In this document: in pieces, positions 1 through 24,867 of the stretch | How positions within the stretch are numbered: position 1 is the first letter of the stretch | How the letters are laid out: each line of letters opens with the position of its first letter | Virus record (IMG/VR): IMGVR_UViG_3300032516_000086 | Coordinates: 1-36,173 of that record | Origin: a virus | Strand: one strand, 5' to 3' | Length of the DNA stretch: 36,173 bases | Notes under the pieces: model-generated | Databases searched by the model: none | What the model saw: the letters and a program-made list of their open reading frames with translations, nothing else | What the model was told of the DNA's origin: nothing | Made by a program: the position numbers and the translations under genes

Positions 1-222
1 TTGGTGTATAAAGGCGTAAATAAGGCTCACCTTGTATTACAGGGAAGCATTGACCCACACTTTTCAGAGAACAAAGAAAAGTATTCGCCAATAGCCCGTT
101 TCGTGCCAACTTTGGAAGGCTGGCAATTAGCATTAGAATTAGTAAAATCGTTGTATAAAAGGAAACATGACAAAACTAGCAACCATCGAAAAAATTCACA
201 GTATTCAAAAACATCCAAATGA
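1..222 (+). CDS. 3' end of an unrecognised gene (5' truncated by window)
   Basis: The frame is open from the first base and runs to a TGA at 220-222, so only the C-terminal 73 or so codons are seen. The residues up to about 52 look like ordinary globular protein (for example ARFVPTLEGWQLALELVKSL). The last 20 are polar and basic and are read through the start of the RNA ligase gene, giving a 56-nt overlap that is long for this genome. I do not recognise the family. The true start lies upstream of the window. The overlap could mean the tail is not conserved. Confidence 0.45.
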   Translation: MVYKGVNKAHLVLQGSIDPHFSENKEKYSPIARFVPTLEGWQLALELVKSLYKRKHDKTSNHRKNSQYSKTSK

Positions 223-1204
223 GGATGTTGAGAAACTTGAAGTAGGAAAAATTAAGGAATGGCCTGTTGTTGTCCCTAAAGGGCAATTTAAGGATGGCGA
301 CCTTGTTGTTTTCATTCAGATTGACTCCATCGTGCCAAAGGAAAATCCTTACTTTGCTTTCATGGAGAGACAGAAGTATCGTGTGTGGAGTGCTAAATTC
401 AAGGGCGCACCCTCACAAGGTCTTGTGTGTCCATTCTCCATTGCTCAACAAATTGAATATAGAGCGAAAGGATTTGAACACGTTGATGTTATCAATGTTG
501 AAGGGGTTGATGTTACCGACGTTCTTGGTATTATCAAATATGAGAAACCTTTGGACGCCACAATTTGTGGTGACGCCAAAGGTGGATTTCCTTCACATTT
601 GATTTCCATTACCGACGAAGACAATCTTCTAAACAATCCGGAAGTTCTAAACGAACTACGTGGTGAGAGAGCCTATATCACATTAAAGGCCGATGGTTCA
701 TCTATGACCGTCTATCACAACGAAGGCCAAGTAGGCGTTTGTAGTCGTAGATGGGAACAGAAAGAAGGAACTGGATTGTGGAAGATTGCCGAATTCTATG
801 ACCTGTCTAACAAACTAAAAGCCCTCAGTAAATCCATTGCACTTCAAGGTGAAGCTTGTGGTGGTAAAATTCAAGGCAATCCACTTGGGTTGAACACTCC
901 CAGTATGTTTGTATTCAACGTCAAAGACATTTCTACAGGAAAATGGTATGGGTGGGAAGAAATCAAAGAAGTATGTAAAATACTTGGTCTTACGCCCGTT
1001 CGTGTCATTTGTGATGATTTTGTCTTTGATGAAACGTGGACAATTCCACACCTTCAAGCTATTGCTAATGGTGCGACTTACCTAACAGACAAGGGTGAAA
1101 TCAGAAAGGGTGAAGGTATCGTTCTACGACCAATGAAGCCTAAATTTTCACCGACTCTTGGCAAGTCTTTATCGGTAAAAATTCTTAATCAAGAATACAA
1201 ATAA
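167..1204 (+). CDS. RNA ligase, DraRnl/Rnl5-like (nucleotidyltransferase superfamily)
   Basis: This is an ATP-dependent RNA ligase that would join 3'-OH to 5'-phosphate RNA ends in the cytoplasm. The nucleotidyltransferase motifs are visible in order: motif I TLKADGS with the adenylated Lys174, SRRW at about 193-196, motif III MFVFNVKD at about 247-254, motif IV EGIVLRP at 316-322 and motif V SVKILN at 336-341. Residues 1-125 form an extra N-terminal domain rich in beta strands, as in the Deinococcus DRB0094 type (about 340 aa), so length and layout fit that family better than T4 Rnl1. The ATG is preceded by AAAAGGAAAC, a fair ribosome site. A TATAAA 7 nt upstream of the ATG is a possible -10 box but lacks a good -35. 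A cREC gene and a PNK-like kinase follow, which supports RNA repair. Confidence 0.9.
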   Translation: MTKLATIEKIHSIQKHPNEDVEKLEVGKIKEWPVVVPKGQFKDGDLVVFIQIDSIVPKENPYFAFMERQKYRVWSAKFKGAPSQGLVCPFSIAQQIEYRAKGFEHVDVINVEGVDVTDVLGIIKYEKPLDATICGDAKGGFPSHLISITDEDNLLNNPEVLNELRGERAYITLKADGSSMTVYHNEGQVGVCSRRWEQKEGTGLWKIAEFYDLSNKLKALSKSIALQGEACGGKIQGNPLGLNTPSMFVFNVKDISTGKWYGWEEIKEVCKILGLTPVRVICDDFVFDETWTIPHLQAIANGATYLTDKGEIRKGEGIVLRPMKPKFSPTLGKSLSVKILNQEYK

Positions 1205-1221
1205 TAACCATATTTATTCCC

Positions 1222-1809
1222 ATGAATATAAGAAATCTTCACAGTAAAATTGGATGTAACTACGCTTGGGAACTTAACACATTCTATAAATTGAGAGACT
1301 TCAAAGATGGCATTACATTCTTTGAATTAATTCTTGAGTGGAATAAATTCATGGGCGACCACAACCCACAATTTACATTCTATTTCATGTTGTTAAATTT
1401 TAGAATTTGGGAATTTACTATCTATAACGTTTGGCATATTGATAATGTAAATTCACCTTACTATCAACAATATCTTAAAGAGGAAGAAGAAGAATGCCTA
1501 TTAGAAAAGTTATCAGAACGTGATGGACCAAACTATGAAGCTGATAATTATGAGGGTATAACACCTATGCCTACATCGAATGTTATTAAAGTAATTTGCC
1601 GTTCACGAAGAAATTTTTATGAGGGCCGACCCATTTATTGGTATGAGTTTGTAGCACCGAAAGAAGTAGATTTCACAGAGTTTATCCCAAAGAAATTTCT
1701 CAATGTTCCTTCTACTGTGTTCTATGAATATGGTGGAAGCCATCAAGAAGCCATTGCCGACTTGACAAAATCAGGATTTACCGATATAGTCGAGGGTAAT
1801 GAGTTATAA
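1222..1809 (+). CDS. hypothetical protein, 195 aa, in RNA-repair operon
   Basis: I do not recognise this protein. It is rich in aromatic residues (many W, F and Y), with an acidic run EEEEE at about residues 90-94. The second half (from about 120) has alternating hydrophobic strands: VIKVICRSRRNFYEG, then IYWYEFVAPKEVDF. No signal peptide or membrane segment is seen. It sits 17 nt after the RNA ligase and overlaps the cREC gene by 11 nt, so it is probably co-transcribed with the RNA-repair genes. The sequence just before the ATG is TATTTATTCCC with no Shine-Dalgarno motif. Confidence 0.75.
   Translation: MNIRNLHSKIGCNYAWELNTFYKLRDFKDGITFFELILEWNKFMGDHNPQFTFYFMLLNFRIWEFTIYNVWHIDNVNSPYYQQYLKEEEEECLLEKLSERDGPNYEADNYEGITPMPTSNVIKVICRSRRNFYEGRPIYWYEFVAPKEVDFTEFIPKKFLNVPSTVFYEYGGSHQEAIADLTKSGFTDIVEGNEL
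1762..1790 (+). promoter_or_regulatory. sigma70-like promoter for cREC gene, inside upstream CDS
   Basis: TTGACA at 1762-1767, a 17-nt spacer, then TATAGT at 1785-1790. The next ATG is at 1799, only 8 nt after the -10 box, so a start site 6-8 nt downstream would give an mRNA with almost no 5' leader. GAGGG lies in those 8 nt and may serve as a ribosome site on the longer read-through transcript. Confidence 0.55.
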
Positions 1810-2164
1810 CCTATTTCTGGATGATGAACGCCAACCCAACGCGTTTCTTAATGACGTAAGAGCTTGGGTGATTGTGCGTAGTTACAATCAGTTCGTGGAG
1901 ACGATTAGAAAGCAAGGATTGCCTAATTTTATATCGTTTGACCACGACTTAGCGGATGAACATTATGTTCAACACACCGACTATCAAAAATTTAAGGAAA
2001 AAACAGGATATGAGTGTGCTAAGTGGTTAATTGAACATTGCATGACAACTAATCAACCTTTGCCGGAATGGCAGGTTCATTCAATGAATCCAGTGGGTAG
2101 AATAAACATTAACATGATTTTGACTGCCCATAAAAATAGAGAAACGGAAGAATTAAATGAATAA
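1799..2164 (+). CDS. cREC-type receiver-like protein (proposed cyclic-phosphate processing)
   Basis: A 121-aa protein with the hallmarks of the receiver-like cREC family: LFLDDERQP at 5-13, FDHDL at 47-51 and VHSMNPVGRI at 93-102. This family was described by comparative genomics as a partner of RNA-repair ligases and proposed to act on 2',3'-cyclic phosphates at cleaved RNA ends. To my knowledge the activity is not proven. Asp8, Asp9, Asp48, Asp50 and His94 are the likely active-site residues. It overlaps the kinase start by 8 nt. The presence of ligase, kinase and phosphoesterase nearby strengthens the call. It is not a classical response regulator, since no output domain or histidine kinase is present. 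Confidence 0.75.
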   Translation: MSYNLFLDDERQPNAFLNDVRAWVIVRSYNQFVETIRKQGLPNFISFDHDLADEHYVQHTDYQKFKEKTGYECAKWLIEHCMTTNQPLPEWQVHSMNPVGRININMILTAHKNRETEELNE

Positions 2165-2624
2165 ACTCGAAACAGGCGAAAAGAAAAAAGCATTGATTAT
2201 CTTGGTTGGACCGCCAGCAAGCGGTAAGTCAACTTGGGGTAAGAAATTTGCTGACGACAATGATGTTGTCTATGTCTCTACCGATGCCATCAGAAAAGAA
2301 ATAGGCTCGGGAGAAGCTGACCAGTCGGTATCAGCCGCAGCCTTTGGTGTTGCTCGACAAAGAGTATCCCAAGCATTGGGTGCAGGTAAGAGTGCCATGA
2401 TTGATGCCACCAGTGTCAATCGTAAAGCTCGTAGAGATTGGATTCAGTTGGGTAGAGGCCACGGTGCATACATTGTTGCTGTCGCTTTTGAGGTATCAAG
2501 AGACGAACTTTTGAGAAGAGACGCACAACGTGAACGTCATGTTGGTGAGGAAGTCATTGACCGATTTATCGGTAAGTATGCTCGACCAACTGCCGACGAA
2601 GTTGATAAGGTCGTTCTAAAATAA
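2157..2624 (+). CDS. polynucleotide-kinase-like P-loop kinase (AAA_33 type)
   Basis: A 155-aa single-domain P-loop kinase. Walker A is GPPASGKS at 18-25. STDAIRKEIG follows at about 41-50, in the place where T4 Pnk has its substrate-binding Asp/Arg. DATSVNRKARRD at about 82-93 matches the IDxTNxxxxxR motif of the Pnk/zeta-toxin-like group, and RRDAQRERHVGEEVIDR forms the lid region. The likely reaction is ATP-dependent phosphorylation of a 5'-OH RNA end, inferred from the neighbouring RNA ligase. Unlike T4 Pnk there is no C-terminal HAD 3'-phosphatase; a separate phosphoesterase is encoded at 4109-4930. It overlaps cREC by 8 nt and no clear Shine-Dalgarno is seen (GAAGAATTAA). Confidence 0.85.
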   Translation: MNKLETGEKKKALIILVGPPASGKSTWGKKFADDNDVVYVSTDAIRKEIGSGEADQSVSAAAFGVARQRVSQALGAGKSAMIDATSVNRKARRDWIQLGRGHGAYIVAVAFEVSRDELLRRDAQRERHVGEEVIDRFIGKYARPTADEVDKVVLK

Positions 2625-2672
2625 TAAGCAGTAATCTAAATTCAACACCAGAAAAATAGTTACACAAAAATT

Positions 2673-3191
2673 ATGAAAACAGTTATGAATGAAGCGGATG
2701 CTCCGTTGACCGCCACCGAAATAACGGAATGGAAAGTCGCCAAGAAAACCAAACCACTAAGAGCAAAGCCTGTAGTGAATCTATTGGTTGATAGAAGTGT
2801 ACTCAACAAGTTTCTTGTTGATACGTTGGAAGCCAAAGAACCTATTCACGAAGGTAACGTAATTTGTATTGGTGAAACCAATGATGCTTGGCAACAAGAA
2901 CCTAAGAAACTCTTGAAGAAATACCAAGTGACTGCCATTGACAAAGACGGATGGATGGTTTGTGAACCTTATCCCGACAATTCGGTGGATTGTTTCCAAG
3001 TTGATTTCCTTATCAACACTCATAGCGGAGAACACTATCTCAAAGCTCTGTGGGGTGAAACTTTTGGAAGTCACAGTTCATGTCAACGATTTGCCGAAGG
3101 AGATTGGATTCTCCGAAATCGTGAAGACCACAACGACGTATGGGTTGTTAGGAAAAAACTATTCGCCAATAGTTATACAATCATCGGATAA
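2673..3191 (+). CDS. hypothetical protein with PGDYG-like C-terminal segment
   Basis: 172 aa. The C-terminal 35 residues (RFAEGDWILRNREDHNDVW, then FANSY) resemble the small PGDYG-type beta module found in many phage and bacterial proteins, with the pattern GDW-x-hydrophobic followed by F-x-x-x-Y. The middle (about 58-120) is a mixed alpha/beta region I do not recognise. The stop overlaps the next start as TAATG, so the two genes are translationally coupled. Function unknown. Confidence 0.7.
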   Translation: MKTVMNEADAPLTATEITEWKVAKKTKPLRAKPVVNLLVDRSVLNKFLVDTLEAKEPIHEGNVICIGETNDAWQQEPKKLLKKYQVTAIDKDGWMVCEPYPDNSVDCFQVDFLINTHSGEHYLKALWGETFGSHSSCQRFAEGDWILRNREDHNDVWVVRKKLFANSYTIIG

Positions 3192-3556
3192 TGGCGAAAA
3201 GTTTCGCAAAACGTTTGAGAATTCCTTTGGATGGAAGGGATAAGCTGGCCTTATTTTCAAAATCAGGAACCCCTCTATCCAAAGGATATACCCGTGTGGT
3301 TATCGGCGGGCGAGGTCCGTATGTCGAATTTAACGACTCTCAAATTTTAATCTCAGCCTTTGAAATTCCAGAGGAAGAGAAATACCGTTTAACCAACGGC
3401 GTATCGTTTTACGTGGAATATAGGTCAAAAGACAATGACTATGTAAAACTTTATTTTCAGAAAAGAAAAGTGGCTTATGCCGATTACAGAATAGGGTTGT
3501 ATTACATTTCACCGTTTGATTTGTATATGCAATACAGTATGCCTGTAATAGTTTAA
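3191..3556 (+). CDS. hypothetical protein, 121 aa, beta-rich
   Basis: Unrecognised. It starts at the TAATG overlap with the preceding gene and has no Shine-Dalgarno of its own. The body is predicted to be beta-rich with alternating charged and hydrophobic stretches, for example TRVVIGGRGPYVEF and VSFYVEYRSKDNDYVKLYF, followed by a repeated Tyr/Phe pattern at the C-terminus. No catalytic motif, membrane helix or signal peptide is seen. Position suggests it belongs to the same transcript as the RNA-repair genes. Confidence 0.7.
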   Translation: MAKSFAKRLRIPLDGRDKLALFSKSGTPLSKGYTRVVIGGRGPYVEFNDSQILISAFEIPEEEKYRLTNGVSFYVEYRSKDNDYVKLYFQKRKVAYADYRIGLYYISPFDLYMQYSMPVIV

Positions 3557-3573
3557 CAAAAGAAAGACAAATC

Positions 3574-4071
3574 ATGACAGACCAAATAATTGACATTGAA
3601 GCCACGGTAATACCTGTGGATGCTGCTGACCAAATCCTTAAAGAACTTGAGGAATTGAATTCCAAAGTTACCGACGCCGACGGTGGTAATTGGGTTCATA
3701 TTCCTAGCCACGGCATTTGTTGGCAGCCTAGTGGGGATAGAATGGGCAAGCCGCTGGCAGTACCCTCCCCCTCAACCCCCCCTCCAGCCATAGAGAGCCT
3801 TGTTCAATGGGGAAATCACGTTGACTTTGAATCCGTTCCAGAAAACGCCGTGGTAATGATTAAACTCAACGTTCAAGACCCAATGCGTGTACAGATAATG
3901 CAACGGGCAATTGCCAAACAGGTTCTTGAACCACGCATTGAAACCTTGAAACAAAAGAGAGTCTGTATTCTCTTTATGCAGGCAGGCGATGACATTTCAG
4001 TGATGACCGAAGAAGAAATGAACAAAGCTGGTTGGGAGAAGAAAGATAAGAGTCGTATCATTACACTATAA
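3574..4071 (+). CDS. hypothetical protein, 165 aa, with proline-rich hinge
   Basis: Unrecognised two-part protein. Residues 1-50 are acidic. A Pro/Ser-rich linker (PLAVPSPSTPPP at about 60-72) leads to a C-terminal alpha/beta domain in which VVMIKLNVQDPMRVQIM and VCILFMQAGDDISVM look like paired strands and helices. AAAGA lies 7-12 nt before the ATG. A promoter for the next gene begins 4 nt after its stop codon, so this may be the last gene of the first transcription unit. Confidence 0.7.
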   Translation: MTDQIIDIEATVIPVDAADQILKELEELNSKVTDADGGNWVHIPSHGICWQPSGDRMGKPLAVPSPSTPPPAIESLVQWGNHVDFESVPENAVVMIKLNVQDPMRVQIMQRAIAKQVLEPRIETLKQKRVCILFMQAGDDISVMTEEEMNKAGWEKKDKSRIITL

Positions 4072-4074
4072 GGC

Positions 4075-4102
4075 TTGACTTTCTATAAAGACCTGATAGA
4101 GT
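4075..4102 (+). promoter_or_regulatory. sigma70-like promoter abutting the phosphoesterase start codon
   Basis: TTGACT at 4075-4080, a 16-nt spacer, then TAGAGT at 4097-4102. The ATG begins at 4109, 6 nt further on. No Shine-Dalgarno fits in this gap, so the transcript is predicted to be leaderless or nearly so. Confidence 0.5.
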
Positions 4103-4108
4103 ATTAAG

Positions 4109-4930
4109 ATGAAATTCCTTATACTTCCAGATGTCCATAATCGTTGGGAGAAAGCAGAGAAAATCATCAAGTCGGTAAAGCCTGACAAGACGATTTTTCT
4201 CGGTGACTACTTTGACGATTTTGGTGACGACCCCGGCATCATTGCTGATGTGGCTGATTGGTTTCGCCATTCGGTGAACCAGAAAGACCGTATCCACCTT
4301 GTCGGCAACCACGATACCCACTATTGGTTCGCTGGTAACAGAGCACTTCGTTGTTCTGGCTATGAACAATTCAAGGCTGTAGCAATCAATGACTTCGTTA
4401 AGAAGGAAGATTGGGAAAAGCTTGAGTGGTTCTATGTTCTTGACAACAGGTGGCTTCTGAGTCATGCAGGCGTTCATCCAAGTTGGTTGGACCCTCAGAA
4501 GTTCAAAGCTAATATCATCAGTGAGTATTCACTTGATACGGTTGTCAAGAAACTCAAGGGTGATGTGGCAGATGCTGAGCGAGCGTTCTATGCAGACAAG
4601 ATGCACTGGTTTGCTATGCCCGGCTTCTCACGTTCACGTAACTCCCCGTATTACGGTGGTTTAACGTGGTGTGATTGGACTCAAGAGTTCCATCCAATCC
4701 GTGGCGTTCATCAGTTGGTAGGCCATACTCCAAGTTACAATGTGACGTGGAATGTGGTAGAACGTGGGGCTGCCCACCGACAAATCCTCTCCCTAGAGGA
4801 AGTGGAGAGTCCAATGCTAACTGACGATAGTTCATACAATCTGTGTCTGGATTCCCAGCCGGGTTCAAAATACTACGCCATTTATGACAATCAACAGTTG
4901 ACGGTACATAATGCCGACAATCTGAAATAG
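4109..4930 (+). CDS. calcineurin-like metallophosphoesterase
   Basis: A 273-aa two-metal phosphoesterase. The conserved ligands are visible: PDVH at about 7-10 (D-x-H), GDYFDD at about 33-38, GNHDTH at about 65-70, LSHAGVHP at about 117-124 and VGHTPS at about 206-211. The set is that of the PP1/PP2A-like and bacterial Pnkp-phosphatase fold. In bacterial Pnkp this fold removes 3'-phosphate or 2',3'-cyclic phosphate from RNA ends, and with a ligase and kinase upstream the same job is the best inference here. A Ser/Thr protein phosphatase or Ap4A hydrolase cannot be excluded. It has its own promoter just upstream and a terminator 29 nt after its stop. Confidence 0.85.
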   Translation: MKFLILPDVHNRWEKAEKIIKSVKPDKTIFLGDYFDDFGDDPGIIADVADWFRHSVNQKDRIHLVGNHDTHYWFAGNRALRCSGYEQFKAVAINDFVKKEDWEKLEWFYVLDNRWLLSHAGVHPSWLDPQKFKANIISEYSLDTVVKKLKGDVADAERAFYADKMHWFAMPGFSRSRNSPYYGGLTWCDWTQEFHPIRGVHQLVGHTPSYNVTWNVVERGAAHRQILSLEEVESPMLTDDSSYNLCLDSQPGSKYYAIYDNQQLTVHNADNLK

Positions 4931-4958
4931 TTCAGAAATAAAACTTGTATAGAATACT

Positions 4959-4990
4959 CGTAGTGAACAACTTTCACTACGGGTTTTCTA
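4959..4990 (+). terminator. intrinsic terminator after the phosphoesterase gene
   Basis: Arms CGTAGTGAA (4959-4967) and TTCACTACG (4973-4981) form a perfect 9-bp stem with a 5-nt loop, followed by GGTTTTCTATTTATT. It closes the RNA-repair transcription unit immediately before the ClpP-like gene. Confidence 0.75.
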
Positions 4991-5000
4991 TTTATTGAGT

Positions 5001-5627
5001 ATGACTAAGAGAAATTGGAAATTTCGCAGTAATGAAGACGACCAATCCGATGACGACGCAACACAACGATTTGTCATTGAACGATCTCCGAATGAAATAG
5101 TGCCACAAGGCAATAAAATCTATTTCTATTCAGATGTTAACAGAGAATCCGTTTTAGGTCTTAACCGACAAATTGATGAATTAACTAAACAAATGAAAAT
5201 TGTTCAGTTAACATACAACCTTCCAAATCCACCAAGACTTGAAATTCACATTTGTAGTGATGGTGGTGATATATTCGCTGGTATGGCGGCAGTTGATAAA
5301 ATAATCAATAATTCAATACCAGTTGATACGTATTGTGAAGGGATAGTCGCATCTGCGGCCACGTTTATATCAGCCGTGGGTCATAAGAGATACATTAACA
5401 AAAGCTCGTGTATGTTAATTCATCAAGTCAGTTCTGGCTTATGGGGAAACTACATGCAGTTCAAAGATGAAATTAAAAACCTTGAGTTGCTTATGGTCTT
5501 AATCAAAGACGTGTATTTGAAAAAGACTAAATTCAGTGACAAGGAATTGGAAGAATTGCTTAGTCATGATTTATGCTTGAACGCAAGCAAATGTCTGGAC
5601 TACGGATTGGTTGATAAAATTCTTTAG
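5001..5627 (+). CDS. ClpP-like serine protease
   Basis: A 208-aa ClpP/crotonase-fold peptidase. The catalytic triad is intact: Ser118 in VASAAT, His141 in MLIHQVSSG and Asp190 in SHDLCLN, followed by the YGLVDKIL ending typical of ClpP. CSDGGDIFAG at about 85-94 is the glycine-rich oxyanion strand. Phages use ClpP-fold enzymes either as prohead maturation proteases or as soluble proteases. No capsid gene is nearby, so the role is open. I chose the ATG at 5001; an in-frame TTG at 4995 would add two residues. The ATG is preceded by TATTTATTGAGT, a motif shared with other genes here, with no Shine-Dalgarno. Confidence 0.88.
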   Translation: MTKRNWKFRSNEDDQSDDDATQRFVIERSPNEIVPQGNKIYFYSDVNRESVLGLNRQIDELTKQMKIVQLTYNLPNPPRLEIHICSDGGDIFAGMAAVDKIINNSIPVDTYCEGIVASAATFISAVGHKRYINKSSCMLIHQVSSGLWGNYMQFKDEIKNLELLMVLIKDVYLKKTKFSDKELEELLSHDLCLNASKCLDYGLVDKIL

Positions 5628-23025: not shown

Positions 23026-23406
23026 TTATACTCCAAAAGTGTTACCAATAATTTCCAAGTCCGCCGTTCTCATGTATGAGAGTGGTTCTTCTGTCTGGTC
23101 GCCCCAATCACAAACGAAGTTACCAACATAAAATTGAGCAACTCCTTGAAATTTGCCATGACCGGGTATGTTATATTCAAGTTTGTCGCCTTCATAAATC
23201 TCTTTACCATTCTTGTCTTTTACATCGGTGTATTGTTCAAGTCTGGCCTCACCGTCAAATGGAACTTCCCATAAAGGTTTTTCCTTTGTGCCATAATTTT
23301 CTAACACCTGTCCATTCAGTGTAATGAGATACCGTTCATCTTCATAGATGAAACTCTTCTCACCATTCTGGGCGGTGTAACAAATTCTGAATTTTATTTC
23401 TCTCAT
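23026..23406 (-). CDS. YopX family protein
   Basis: A 126-aa member of the YopX family, common in phages of many hosts. It has the N-terminal REIKFRICY, the signature LEQYTDVKDKNGKEIYEGD at about 56-74 and a beta-rich rest ending DLEIIGNTFGV. YopX proteins form small beta-barrel oligomers; their role is unknown. Its ATG overlaps the stop of the macro-domain gene (ATGA), placing it at the end of the operon 25352-23026. Confidence 0.88.
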   Translation of the reverse strand: MREIKFRICYTAQNGEKSFIYEDERYLITLNGQVLENYGTKEKPLWEVPFDGEARLEQYTDVKDKNGKEIYEGDKLEYNIPGHGKFQGVAQFYVGNFVCDWGDQTEEPLSYMRTADLEIIGNTFGV

Positions 23407-24071
23407 AGGAAGGTGTCTAATGTGAATTCGGGTTTCTTGGGTGCTTCATCAGGCAAGCACAAATTAATGTCCACACCAAACTTTTCAGAAAATCGTGATA
23501 GTTCTGTTGTAATGAGAGTTTTAATTTCTTCACGTTCTGGTGGAGCAGTAAAGCCTACTACCTTACCATAAGGGCCACGACGACCATTCTTTCCACCGGG
23601 TAGTGGCATGTTTACAGACTTGATATCGTTCTCCAAGATGACAAGTTTTAAGGATTTGATGGAAGACTCAATCCATTCAAGGGTTGACCAATGGCGCCAA
23701 TCATCCTTTACTGCCAATCCAAGAATCCAAACGTGATGTTCTTCATCGAAGTAACTATAACAGTCGCCGGGACGAAGGGCGTGTTTGGCACACTGTTCTT
23801 TATAGTGTTCAAACATCTTGGGATAACGTTTCTTAAACTCTAAAGCAATTCCTGCGCCCATTACGCCTACACAATTCACCGTGTTGACATAAGCATCCGC
23901 GGGAGTATCAAAGATGGATTTATAAGAAGTAATCAATCCTAGACTTACAGGCGGAGTCATAGTATAGACTACCGACGTTGAAACATCACTACAAGAACAC
24001 ATTTGGGTGTAGTTCTTACAAACCGGACAAATTGGGTCACCTGTTGGCATAGTATTATCCAAAAAATTCAT
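23403..24071 (-). CDS. macro-domain protein (DarG/TARG1-like ADP-ribose hydrolase)
   Basis: A macro domain with AYVNTVNCVGVMGAGIALEF, then KKRYPKMFEHYKEQC, matching the DarG/TARG1 group that removes ADP-ribose from DNA or proteins; the Lys pair after GAGIALEF is where the catalytic Lys sits in that group. The later loop NMPLPGGKNGRRGPYGKV differs from the usual GCGL-G/D motif, so activity is not certain. An N-terminal CPVC...CSCS cluster may bind zinc. Length 222 aa from the ATG at 24071; a Met at 24050 is an alternative. It overlaps the Mom-like gene by 17 nt. Likely counters ADP-ribosylating defence. Confidence 0.82.
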   Translation of the reverse strand: MNFLDNTMPTGDPICPVCKNYTQMCSCSDVSTSVVYTMTPPVSLGLITSYKSIFDTPADAYVNTVNCVGVMGAGIALEFKKRYPKMFEHYKEQCAKHALRPGDCYSYFDEEHHVWILGLAVKDDWRHWSTLEWIESSIKSLKLVILENDIKSVNMPLPGGKNGRRGPYGKVVGFTAPPEREEIKTLITTELSRFSEKFGVDINLCLPDEAPKKPEFTLDTFL

Positions 24072-24867
24072 TTTCTGTTCTCTTATAGGAATCAACATTC
24101 TTTCGGTTGACGGTGACTTTACCCAAGTCAATTTTAGGCATTTCTTTAACCAGTTCATATCCATCATCTGTTTGTTTCTTCCACTCCAAATCACATTCTT
24201 TTGGATAGTCTATTATCCACTTAACGGTAGATTTGTCAAGCATTTTCCTAGATTTCTTAGATAATGGCATGATATATCTAAATTGTTTTCCTCTTACTCT
24301 ACTGATACCTTTCAGTTTTAGAAAATCTCTTGTCAACCAGAAAATCTTTTCTTTACCCACAAACTTAGCATTCTCCATGCAAAGCTTGTGTGAAGTTCTT
24401 GGGTGAATTTTCTCACCATCAGGACCGATGTAAATGTCCGTCCAAATAAAACCACCATAAAGGAAATTTGCTGATTGATAAACATATCCAACTTTACCGA
24501 CAATACCATCTGCCCAAGTGTACAAGAACAGTCGTTCAGGTAGATTCTTTTTTATCCAAGCAATTACTGCGGCCAACATTTGTGATTCAGAATTTCTTGG
24601 CATTTCAGGCAACATGCACATCTTACCAATTTCATAATAATCTTTTGTAGTCAGTGCTGGAAACAGTTTACGAATAGTCGCGAGTGGTTGTGTTCCCCAT
24701 CCTAATGTCAACACTCCAACTAATCGTTTATCAATAGAAGCTTCATTGATGTAAATACCAAGATAATGTTTTGTCAGTCGTGGCATCACCTTTGAATAAT
24801 GATGTTCATGAACCAACGCAGCAGCTCTGTATTTATCAATCTCCTTTACTATGAAATCAAACTTCAT
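24055..24867 (-). CDS. Mom-like DNA adenine modification protein (GNAT-fold)
   Basis: A 270-aa protein with the pattern of phage Mu Mom relatives: HEHHYSKVMP at 20-29, VGVLTLGWG at 50-58, YYEIGKMCMLPEMPRNSES at 77-95, YTWADGIVGKVGYVYQ at 116-131 and SANFLYGG at 132-139. Mu Mom converts adenine in DNA to N6-(methylcarbamoyl)adenine, protecting phage DNA from restriction. Residues 150-270 are a basic C-terminal part (CMENAKFVGKEKIFWLTRDF, KSRKMLDKS) suited to DNA binding. Modification of this phage's DNA is an inference. It overlaps the nuclease gene upstream (ATGA) and the macro-domain gene downstream. Confidence 0.75.
   Translation of the reverse strand: MKFDFIVKEIDKYRAAALVHEHHYSKVMPRLTKHYLGIYINEASIDKRLVGVLTLGWGTQPLATIRKLFPALTTKDYYEIGKMCMLPEMPRNSESQMLAAVIAWIKKNLPERLFLYTWADGIVGKVGYVYQSANFLYGGFIWTDIYIGPDGEKIHPRTSHKLCMENAKFVGKEKIFWLTRDFLKLKGISRVRGKQFRYIMPLSKKSRKMLDKSTVKWIIDYPKECDLEWKKQTDDGYELVKEMPKIDLGKVTVNRKNVDSYKRTENEFFG

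Follow-up and report, generated by a model that had tools for sequence, protein, structure and literature searches.

We analysed a virus fragment of 36,173 bases from IMG/VR (record IMGVR_UViG_3300032516_000086; the whole stretch is called the window here), in which eight genes on the + strand, at 167-4930, encode a candidate split RNA-repair system. The fragment belongs to a large tailed phage of distant T4-like type, whose family-B DNA polymerase shares 42% identity with that of Microcystis phage Mel-JY01 and ~30% with those of other T4-like phages. The eight genes are ordered ligase, 195-residue protein, cREC (cyclic-phosphate processing receiver domain, a predicted activity), kinase, proteins of 172, 121 and 165 residues, and phosphatase, and are spaced by -11 to +48 bp. 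The original prediction had read a ligase, a cREC protein, a PNK-like kinase and a calcineurin-like phosphoesterase in this interval; family profiles found all of them on the + strand, and the four interleaved proteins are also present. Codon usage supports the annotated frame for 8 of 8 genes, and those with relatives show mainly synonymous substitutions (nonsynonymous divergence, dN, 0.16-0.35; synonymous divergence, dS, 1.1-4.9 or saturated, the frequent saturation making dS a rough measure).

The terminator-like hairpin that follows the phosphatase gene is kept in three relatives, so that at the 3' side the interval fits a single likely transcription unit. Only 166 bp of the window precede the ligase gene, and the 5' end of the operon lies beyond the window edge. 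A DNA-level search of annotated phages with the window gave no match, neither an Rfam family nor a tRNA was detected in it, and PADLOC returned weak matches only.

Table 1 Features of the operon and its borders (aa, amino acids; pLDDT, predicted local distance difference test score)
Feature	Position	Strand	Remarks
3' end of upstream gene, truncated by window edge	1-222	+	Overlaps ligase start; 64% identity over 69 aa to a frame in L025
RNA ligase, Rnl5 type, 345 aa	167-1204	+	N-terminal OB-fold domain and nucleotidyltransferase domain
Unknown protein, 195 aa, acidic	1222-1809	+	Conservation in the last ~95 aa; several relatives have the N-terminal half missing or as a separate piece
cREC, predicted activity, 121 aa	1799-2164	+	cREC_REC (PF20274) 3e-24
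Stand-alone polynucleotide 5'-kinase, Pnkp type, 155 aa	2157-2624	+	AAA_33 5e-28
Unknown protein, 172 aa, accessory	2673-3191	+	Frame supported by codon usage; no relative in nine compared phages
Unknown protein, 121 aa, basic (pI 9.4)	3191-3556	+	Sole relative in L025, 73%
Unknown protein, 165 aa, acidic	3574-4071	+	Kept in 8 compared phages; conservation highest in C-terminal ~90 aa
Calcineurin-like phosphatase, PPP-like branch, 273 aa	4109-4930	+	Metallophos (PF00149) 1e-11; model pLDDT 94
Terminator-like hairpin, 12-bp stem and T-rich tail	4956-4984	+	After phosphatase; same place in L011, L025, L029

The four enzymes and the interleaved proteins

The ligase matches RNA_ligase (PF09414, 8e-21) over residues 170-327 and the PHA02142 OB-fold domain (PF21189, 8e-16) over residues 4-89, and the nearest solved structure is that of the Naegleria RNA ligase (8e-38, residues 3-328). 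Motif I KADG (K174), SRR (R194), QGE (E229), EGIV (E316) and motif V SVK (K338) are intact, which places motifs I, III/IIIa and IV and the motif V lysine in the protein, the alignment of motif V being ambiguous in distant members. The NCBIfam model RNA_lig_DRB0094 is matched at 2e-38 with 131.9 bits, under its 151-bit equivalog cut-off; judged by these scores, the ligase is a member of the Rnl5 family in the wide sense and not a DRB0094 equivalog. Rnl5 ligases are known, from the work on DraRnl and NgrRnl, as sealers of 3'-OH RNA nicks in duplexes more than of anticodon-loop breaks. Variation around the ligase gene was seen in other contigs: a histidine phosphatase (PF00300) gene stands just upstream of it in two relatives (L029 5905-6558 and L011 4540-5205), and in another contig (L263 5106-7538) an Rnl5 ligase gene is seemingly split in two frames around a 322-aa open reading frame, as by an intron or insertion.

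The kinase matches the bacter_Pnkp profile in its kinase part (6e-25) and the C. thermocellum Pnkp kinase (3.5e-16). On TIGR04075 its residues 11-139 align with positions 8-135 of 851, corresponding to the kinase domain alone and not to a whole Pnkp. The P-loop GPPASGKST, D43 and R46 of the D-x-x-R motif, and lid residues R121 and R125 are invariant across 10 sequences. Assignments as a tRNA-Sec kinase or a Zeta toxin were rejected, their matches being far weaker than those to Pnkp. In two PHROG families (phrog_8238 and phrog_246) the match to the kinase covers the first ~150 positions and that to the phosphatase family lies beyond position ~170, implying that the two domains are fused in other phages; in L070, a gene for a T4-like kinase-HAD protein precedes an Rnl5 ligase gene by 12 bp. 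The separation of repair steps onto individual proteins, as originally proposed, is thus borne out in the window, where each of the four enzyme types has its own gene. A 365-kb relative also encodes, by sequence reading only, a second kinase that appears to be a fusion with a HAD-type phosphatase (L209 891-1829), beside a nicotinamide phosphoribosyltransferase-like gene.

The cREC protein has a receiver-like domain with conserved aspartates and no histidine kinase, and D8, D9, D48, H49 and H94 are invariant in its alignment; a PDB profile search with it gave chance-level matches only. Iyer 2021 (PMC7824862) names cRec, reports its operonic ties to RNA ligases, proposes that it opens cyclic ends, and gives cyclic ADP-ribose (cADPr) or 2',3'-cyclic nucleotides as its proposed substrates, and a later study terms it experimentally uncharacterized (Iyer 2022, PMC9503650). 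A ClpP-like protease gene recurs near cREC in otherwise different phages (window 4995-5627; L220, L221, L236, L264; phage 121Q), and could have a role beyond that of a bystander.

The phosphatase carries the motifs DVHN, GDYFDDF, GNHD, SHAG, GHTP and LCLD. Its best PHROG is the Pnkp-like phrog_8238. The structural model falls nearest to the PPP-like branch, with protein-tyrosine phosphatase 1v73 (Z score 16.0), ApaH (15.5), lambda phosphatase (15.2) and the C. thermocellum Pnkp phosphatase (4j6o; 14.8, root-mean-square deviation 3.5, 192 residues aligned) at scores too close to set an order among them. A scan with a narrow phosphatase pattern had made the family look rare outside the clade of the window, and this was overturned by the cREC scan described below; tblastn with the phosphatase in annotated phages gave no match. 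Orphan relatives (L129-L208) occur in Thaumarchaeota, Methanoperedens, Chlamydiae and Verrucomicrobia, with no repair genes nearby.

The four interleaved proteins had been suggested to bind tRNA or adapt the enzymes, and their distribution gives little backing to this idea. Two are rare (172 and 121 aa) and one is eroding, the 195-aa protein being intact only in L002 among the compared relatives and shortened or split elsewhere, so that as a group they are, from sequence comparison, mostly not core. The 165-aa protein is widely kept and, alone among the four, has the conservation to count as a likely core partner. Neither it nor the 195-aa protein has more than chance-level matches in PDB profile searches; the 195-aa protein has no Pfam, PHROG or PDB match worth naming, tblastn of the 165-aa protein in annotated phages gave no match, and its structural model (pLDDT 57) is too poor for a structure search. 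In L217 (4900-8484), relatives of both flank cREC with no kinase, ligase or phosphatase within 12 kb, an arrangement in which the two may go with cREC and not with the ligase.

Conservation of the gene set and its tRNA neighbours

Scanning viral contigs with each operon protein recovered relatives in ~10 distinct contigs of up to 365 kb (loci carry L numbers here). The original prediction had made its case depend on a neighbourhood conserved in related phages, and the gene set is indeed retained among T4-like and jumbo relatives, with part of it present in phages further removed. The order in the clade is ligase-(195)-cREC-kinase-(172/121)-165-phosphatase, followed by genes for a ClpP-like protease, HNH, VWA and an epimerase, and in some relatives the gaps are occupied by genes of homing-type endonucleases and by a methyltransferase. 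L027, which is more divergent, still has ligase, kinase and cREC grouped, though rearranged, and its phosphatase lies 5.6 kb from them. Two further loci (L223 and L225) have ligase-cREC-kinase-phosphatase, and three others (L220, L221 and L224, at ~2680-6430 in contigs of 126-373 kb) have a second split set, Rnl1-phosphoesterase-kinase-cREC, in which the T4 Rnl1-type ligase was confirmed in L220 and L224 and the phosphoesterase, typed in L220, belongs to another family (phrog_547).

The cREC scan returned 80 loci. Among 35 cREC contigs outside the clade, each counted once, 21 have a kinase, which in 9 of them lies no more than 2.5 kb from cREC (Fisher p 9e-9); for this phosphatase family the figure is 6 of 12 (p 4e-4). 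When the seven contigs with the HNH/DHFR synteny of the window were removed, the values became 5e-5 for the kinase and 0.007 for the phosphatase, and with the Rnl1 group reduced to one member as well, 0.003 for the kinase; all of these are guides and not strict probabilities because the contigs were partly picked after local hits, some share the ClpP-like gene, and common descent contributes. Most of the syntenic phages also share the wider ClpP-like-HNH-VWA block with the window, as would be expected if the genes had clustered by chance and been retained by common descent with no shared function. We consider this extremely improbable, since the set stays together in L027 despite its shuffled order, and the enzymes recur with cREC in phages that do not have this block while intervening genes come and go.

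The region upstream of the ligase suggests an RNA client. In all 6 clade loci with a readable upstream region (L002, L004 and its copies, L010, L011, L025, also recorded as L038, and L029), 4-6 clustered tRNA genes share the strand of the ligase, and the cluster stops 0.9-2.0 kb short of it; the cluster content in the clade is Gly, Gly, Ile, Met, Leu, Leu. L025, whose tRNA genes stop 0.9 kb short of the ligase, is also the locus with the frame that matches window 1-222. As the window begins so close to the ligase, its own tRNA cluster, if present, would be out of view. In L005 the ligase lies within a large tRNA array. Across 22 unrelated Rnl5 contigs, tRNA proximity is weakly above chance among the matches listed (Kolmogorov-Smirnov p 0.003, Fisher p 0.06), and the general link being weak, it is chiefly the clade that carries the tRNA argument, its cluster pointing to tRNA as the client. 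In the isolated Rhizobium phage RHph_I1_18, genes for RNA ligase A, a stand-alone kinase, tRNA-His guanylyltransferase and CCA-adding enzyme, and tRNAs, are found together (162106-170546).

The same upstream region bears on the possibility that the set mends nicked duplexes of phage DNA metabolism (RNA-primed or RNA/DNA nicks) rather than RNA cut by host defence. The nick-sealing habit of Rnl5 ligases and the HNH endonuclease genes in the neighbourhood would suit such a role, yet what precedes the ligase in relatives is tRNA genes and not replication genes, and the literature ties cREC to RNA-repair contexts, which together make this explanation very unlikely.

Two observations elsewhere in the window concern other features. 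The sequence CTATTTATTG (with up to 1 mismatch) occurs in 11 copies against 4.5 expected and a maximum of 10 in 100 shuffles, at 4988-4997, 11733 and 15768 as well as in near-matches, and is possibly a phage promoter or processing signal. On the - strand, a gene for a Macro-domain protein (PF01661, 8e-9; 23403-24194) overlaps one for a Mom-family DNA-modification protein (PF25680, 3e-51; 24055-24867); they could form a DNA-modification pair, and a link of the Macro domain to ADP-ribose chemistry is conceivable.

A heal-and-seal interpretation and its alternatives

An ATP-dependent ligase requires a 3'-OH and a 5'-phosphate. Metal-independent ribonucleases yield a 2',3'-cyclic phosphate and a 5'-OH (PMC4411300). 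Since one operon encodes ligase and kinase together with a phosphatase and a predicted cyclic-phosphate enzyme, repair is the parsimonious reading, and we are reasonably confident that 167-4930 is a split heal-and-seal RNA-repair operon. From the gene content we infer a scheme in which a metal-independent ribonuclease would cut RNA, leaving these ends; cREC and/or the calcineurin-like phosphatase would open the cyclic phosphate and remove the 3' phosphate; the stand-alone Pnkp-type kinase would phosphorylate the 5' end; and the Rnl5 ligase would join 3'-OH to 5'-phosphate with ATP. The likeliest clients would be tRNAs of host or phage, or further structured RNAs of translation, that nucleases of host defence have cut, and the operon probably serves tRNA against host ribonucleases, the counter-defence purpose put forward in the original prediction being likewise putative. 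The analogy drawn in the original prediction with the T4 answer to PrrC is not supported by the ligase type: the preference of Rnl5 for duplex nicks suggests breaks in structured regions and not a plain copy of the T4 answer. A tRNA link is seen in relatives, where a tRNA cluster lies just upstream.

Several observations weigh against this interpretation. Ligases of the Rnl5 type would be less suited to anticodon-loop breaks, L027, a 172-kb contig with the gene set, has no tRNA hit, and the linkage p values are weakened as described above. The phosphatase does not have the GDxVDRG signature of the Pnkp phosphatase and has GDYFDDF instead, the signature not being kept in a 22-member alignment, and its many cellular relatives in a genome scan include none with a ligase, kinase or cREC nearby. 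No phosphatase match was found in the fragments of L002 (85 kb) or L037 (90 kb); with this result for L002 and the structural tie between ApaH, lambda phosphatase and Pnkp phosphatase, calling the module complete, as the original prediction did, claims too much. Isolates also place cREC beside NAD-handling genes (Sir2 in 121Q, NadR-like in AhSzq-1), so its substrate may be a nucleotide.

This last point, together with the structural tie and the cADPr or 2',3'-cyclic nucleotide substrates put forward in Iyer 2021, would fit two loosely linked units, in which kinase and ligase join RNA while cREC and the phosphatase act on small nucleotides (ADP-ribose phosphates, Ap4A, cyclic nucleotides) and blunt host immune signals. 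L288 would accord with such a division: its cREC and phosphatase adjoin a DNA ligase, and nothing in its 35-kb contig matches the kinase. We nevertheless regard the division as fairly unlikely, because cREC and the phosphatase share an operon with the kinase and ligase, the genes recur together even with a different ligase and phosphoesterase, and kinase-phosphatase fusions exist. Searches for sirtuin or KptA found none linked to the operon in ten contigs, and a SIR2 search found none in the window or in 8 of 9 relatives, G008 having one 140 kb away.

An RNA-repair operon could also be part of something larger, namely a repair-and-supply unit for translation, with phage tRNAs and the split Rnl5/Pnkp/cREC/calcineurin set encoded together and acting as a multi-protein complex scaffolded by the 165-aa protein, and with cREC as the first proven receiver-fold opener of RNA cyclic phosphates; in this full form the proposal is unlikely. 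The neighbourhood places cREC beside the enzymes that need its predicted product, offering a clean, small four-protein set for an in vitro test of the cyclic-phosphate prediction.

Comparison with known systems

The ligase resembles DraRnl of D. radiodurans and NgrRnl, which have the same OB module and nucleotidyltransferase domain; these are cellular, whereas the window ligase is from a phage and scores under the DRB0094 equivalog cut-off. Bacterial Pnkp (C. thermocellum), including Pnkp-Hen1, shares the kinase family, the calcineurin-like phosphatase fold and the heal-and-seal chemistry, but it joins kinase, phosphatase and ligase in one chain, while the window has separate proteins, an Rnl5 and not a Pnkp ligase, no Hen1, and another phosphatase signature. 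The Pnkp1-Rnl-Hen1 complex (PMC4411300) is also an operon-encoded RNA-repair system with the ligase apart from the healing enzymes; it differs in the fusion of kinase and HAD phosphatase in Pnkp1 and in the presence of the Hen1 methyltransferase. In T4, cut tRNA is restored by Pnkp and Rnl1 (PMC3400036), which between them provide the kinase, phosphatase and ligase; kinase and HAD (DxDxT) phosphatase are fused there, the ligase is Rnl1 and there is no cREC, in contrast to the Rnl5 and cREC of the window.

Phage neighbourhoods of a similar kind have been described before. In Escherichia phage V5 and Proteus phage Mydo, a T4-like tRNA ligase, cREC, a nucleotide kinase and sometimes a calcineurin-like phosphoesterase surround a sirtuin (Iyer 2022, PMC9503650); there the ligase is T4-like and the sirtuin central, whereas the window operon has an Rnl5 ligase and no sirtuin in the operon or the window. 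For jumbo phages, the accessible parts of Iyer 2021 predict cRec with an ATP-dependent ligase, a kinase and a phosphatase, calcineurin-like in a few; the ligases there are commonly Rnl1 or Rnl2 and the phosphatases mostly HAD, while the Rnl5 set, the conserved terminator and the tRNA cluster are features of the clade of the window. We found no paper in the open-access literature on an Rnl5-based version without a linked sirtuin. As neighbourhoods of ligase, cREC, kinase and calcineurin-like enzyme are published (Iyer 2021, 2022), the new part here is a version that is Rnl5-based, has no linked sirtuin and is tRNA-linked. With kinase and cREC constant, the ligase is Rnl5 in some sets and Rnl1 in others, and the phosphoesterase family changes too, a recurring exchange that suggests a modular build of RNA repair in phages.

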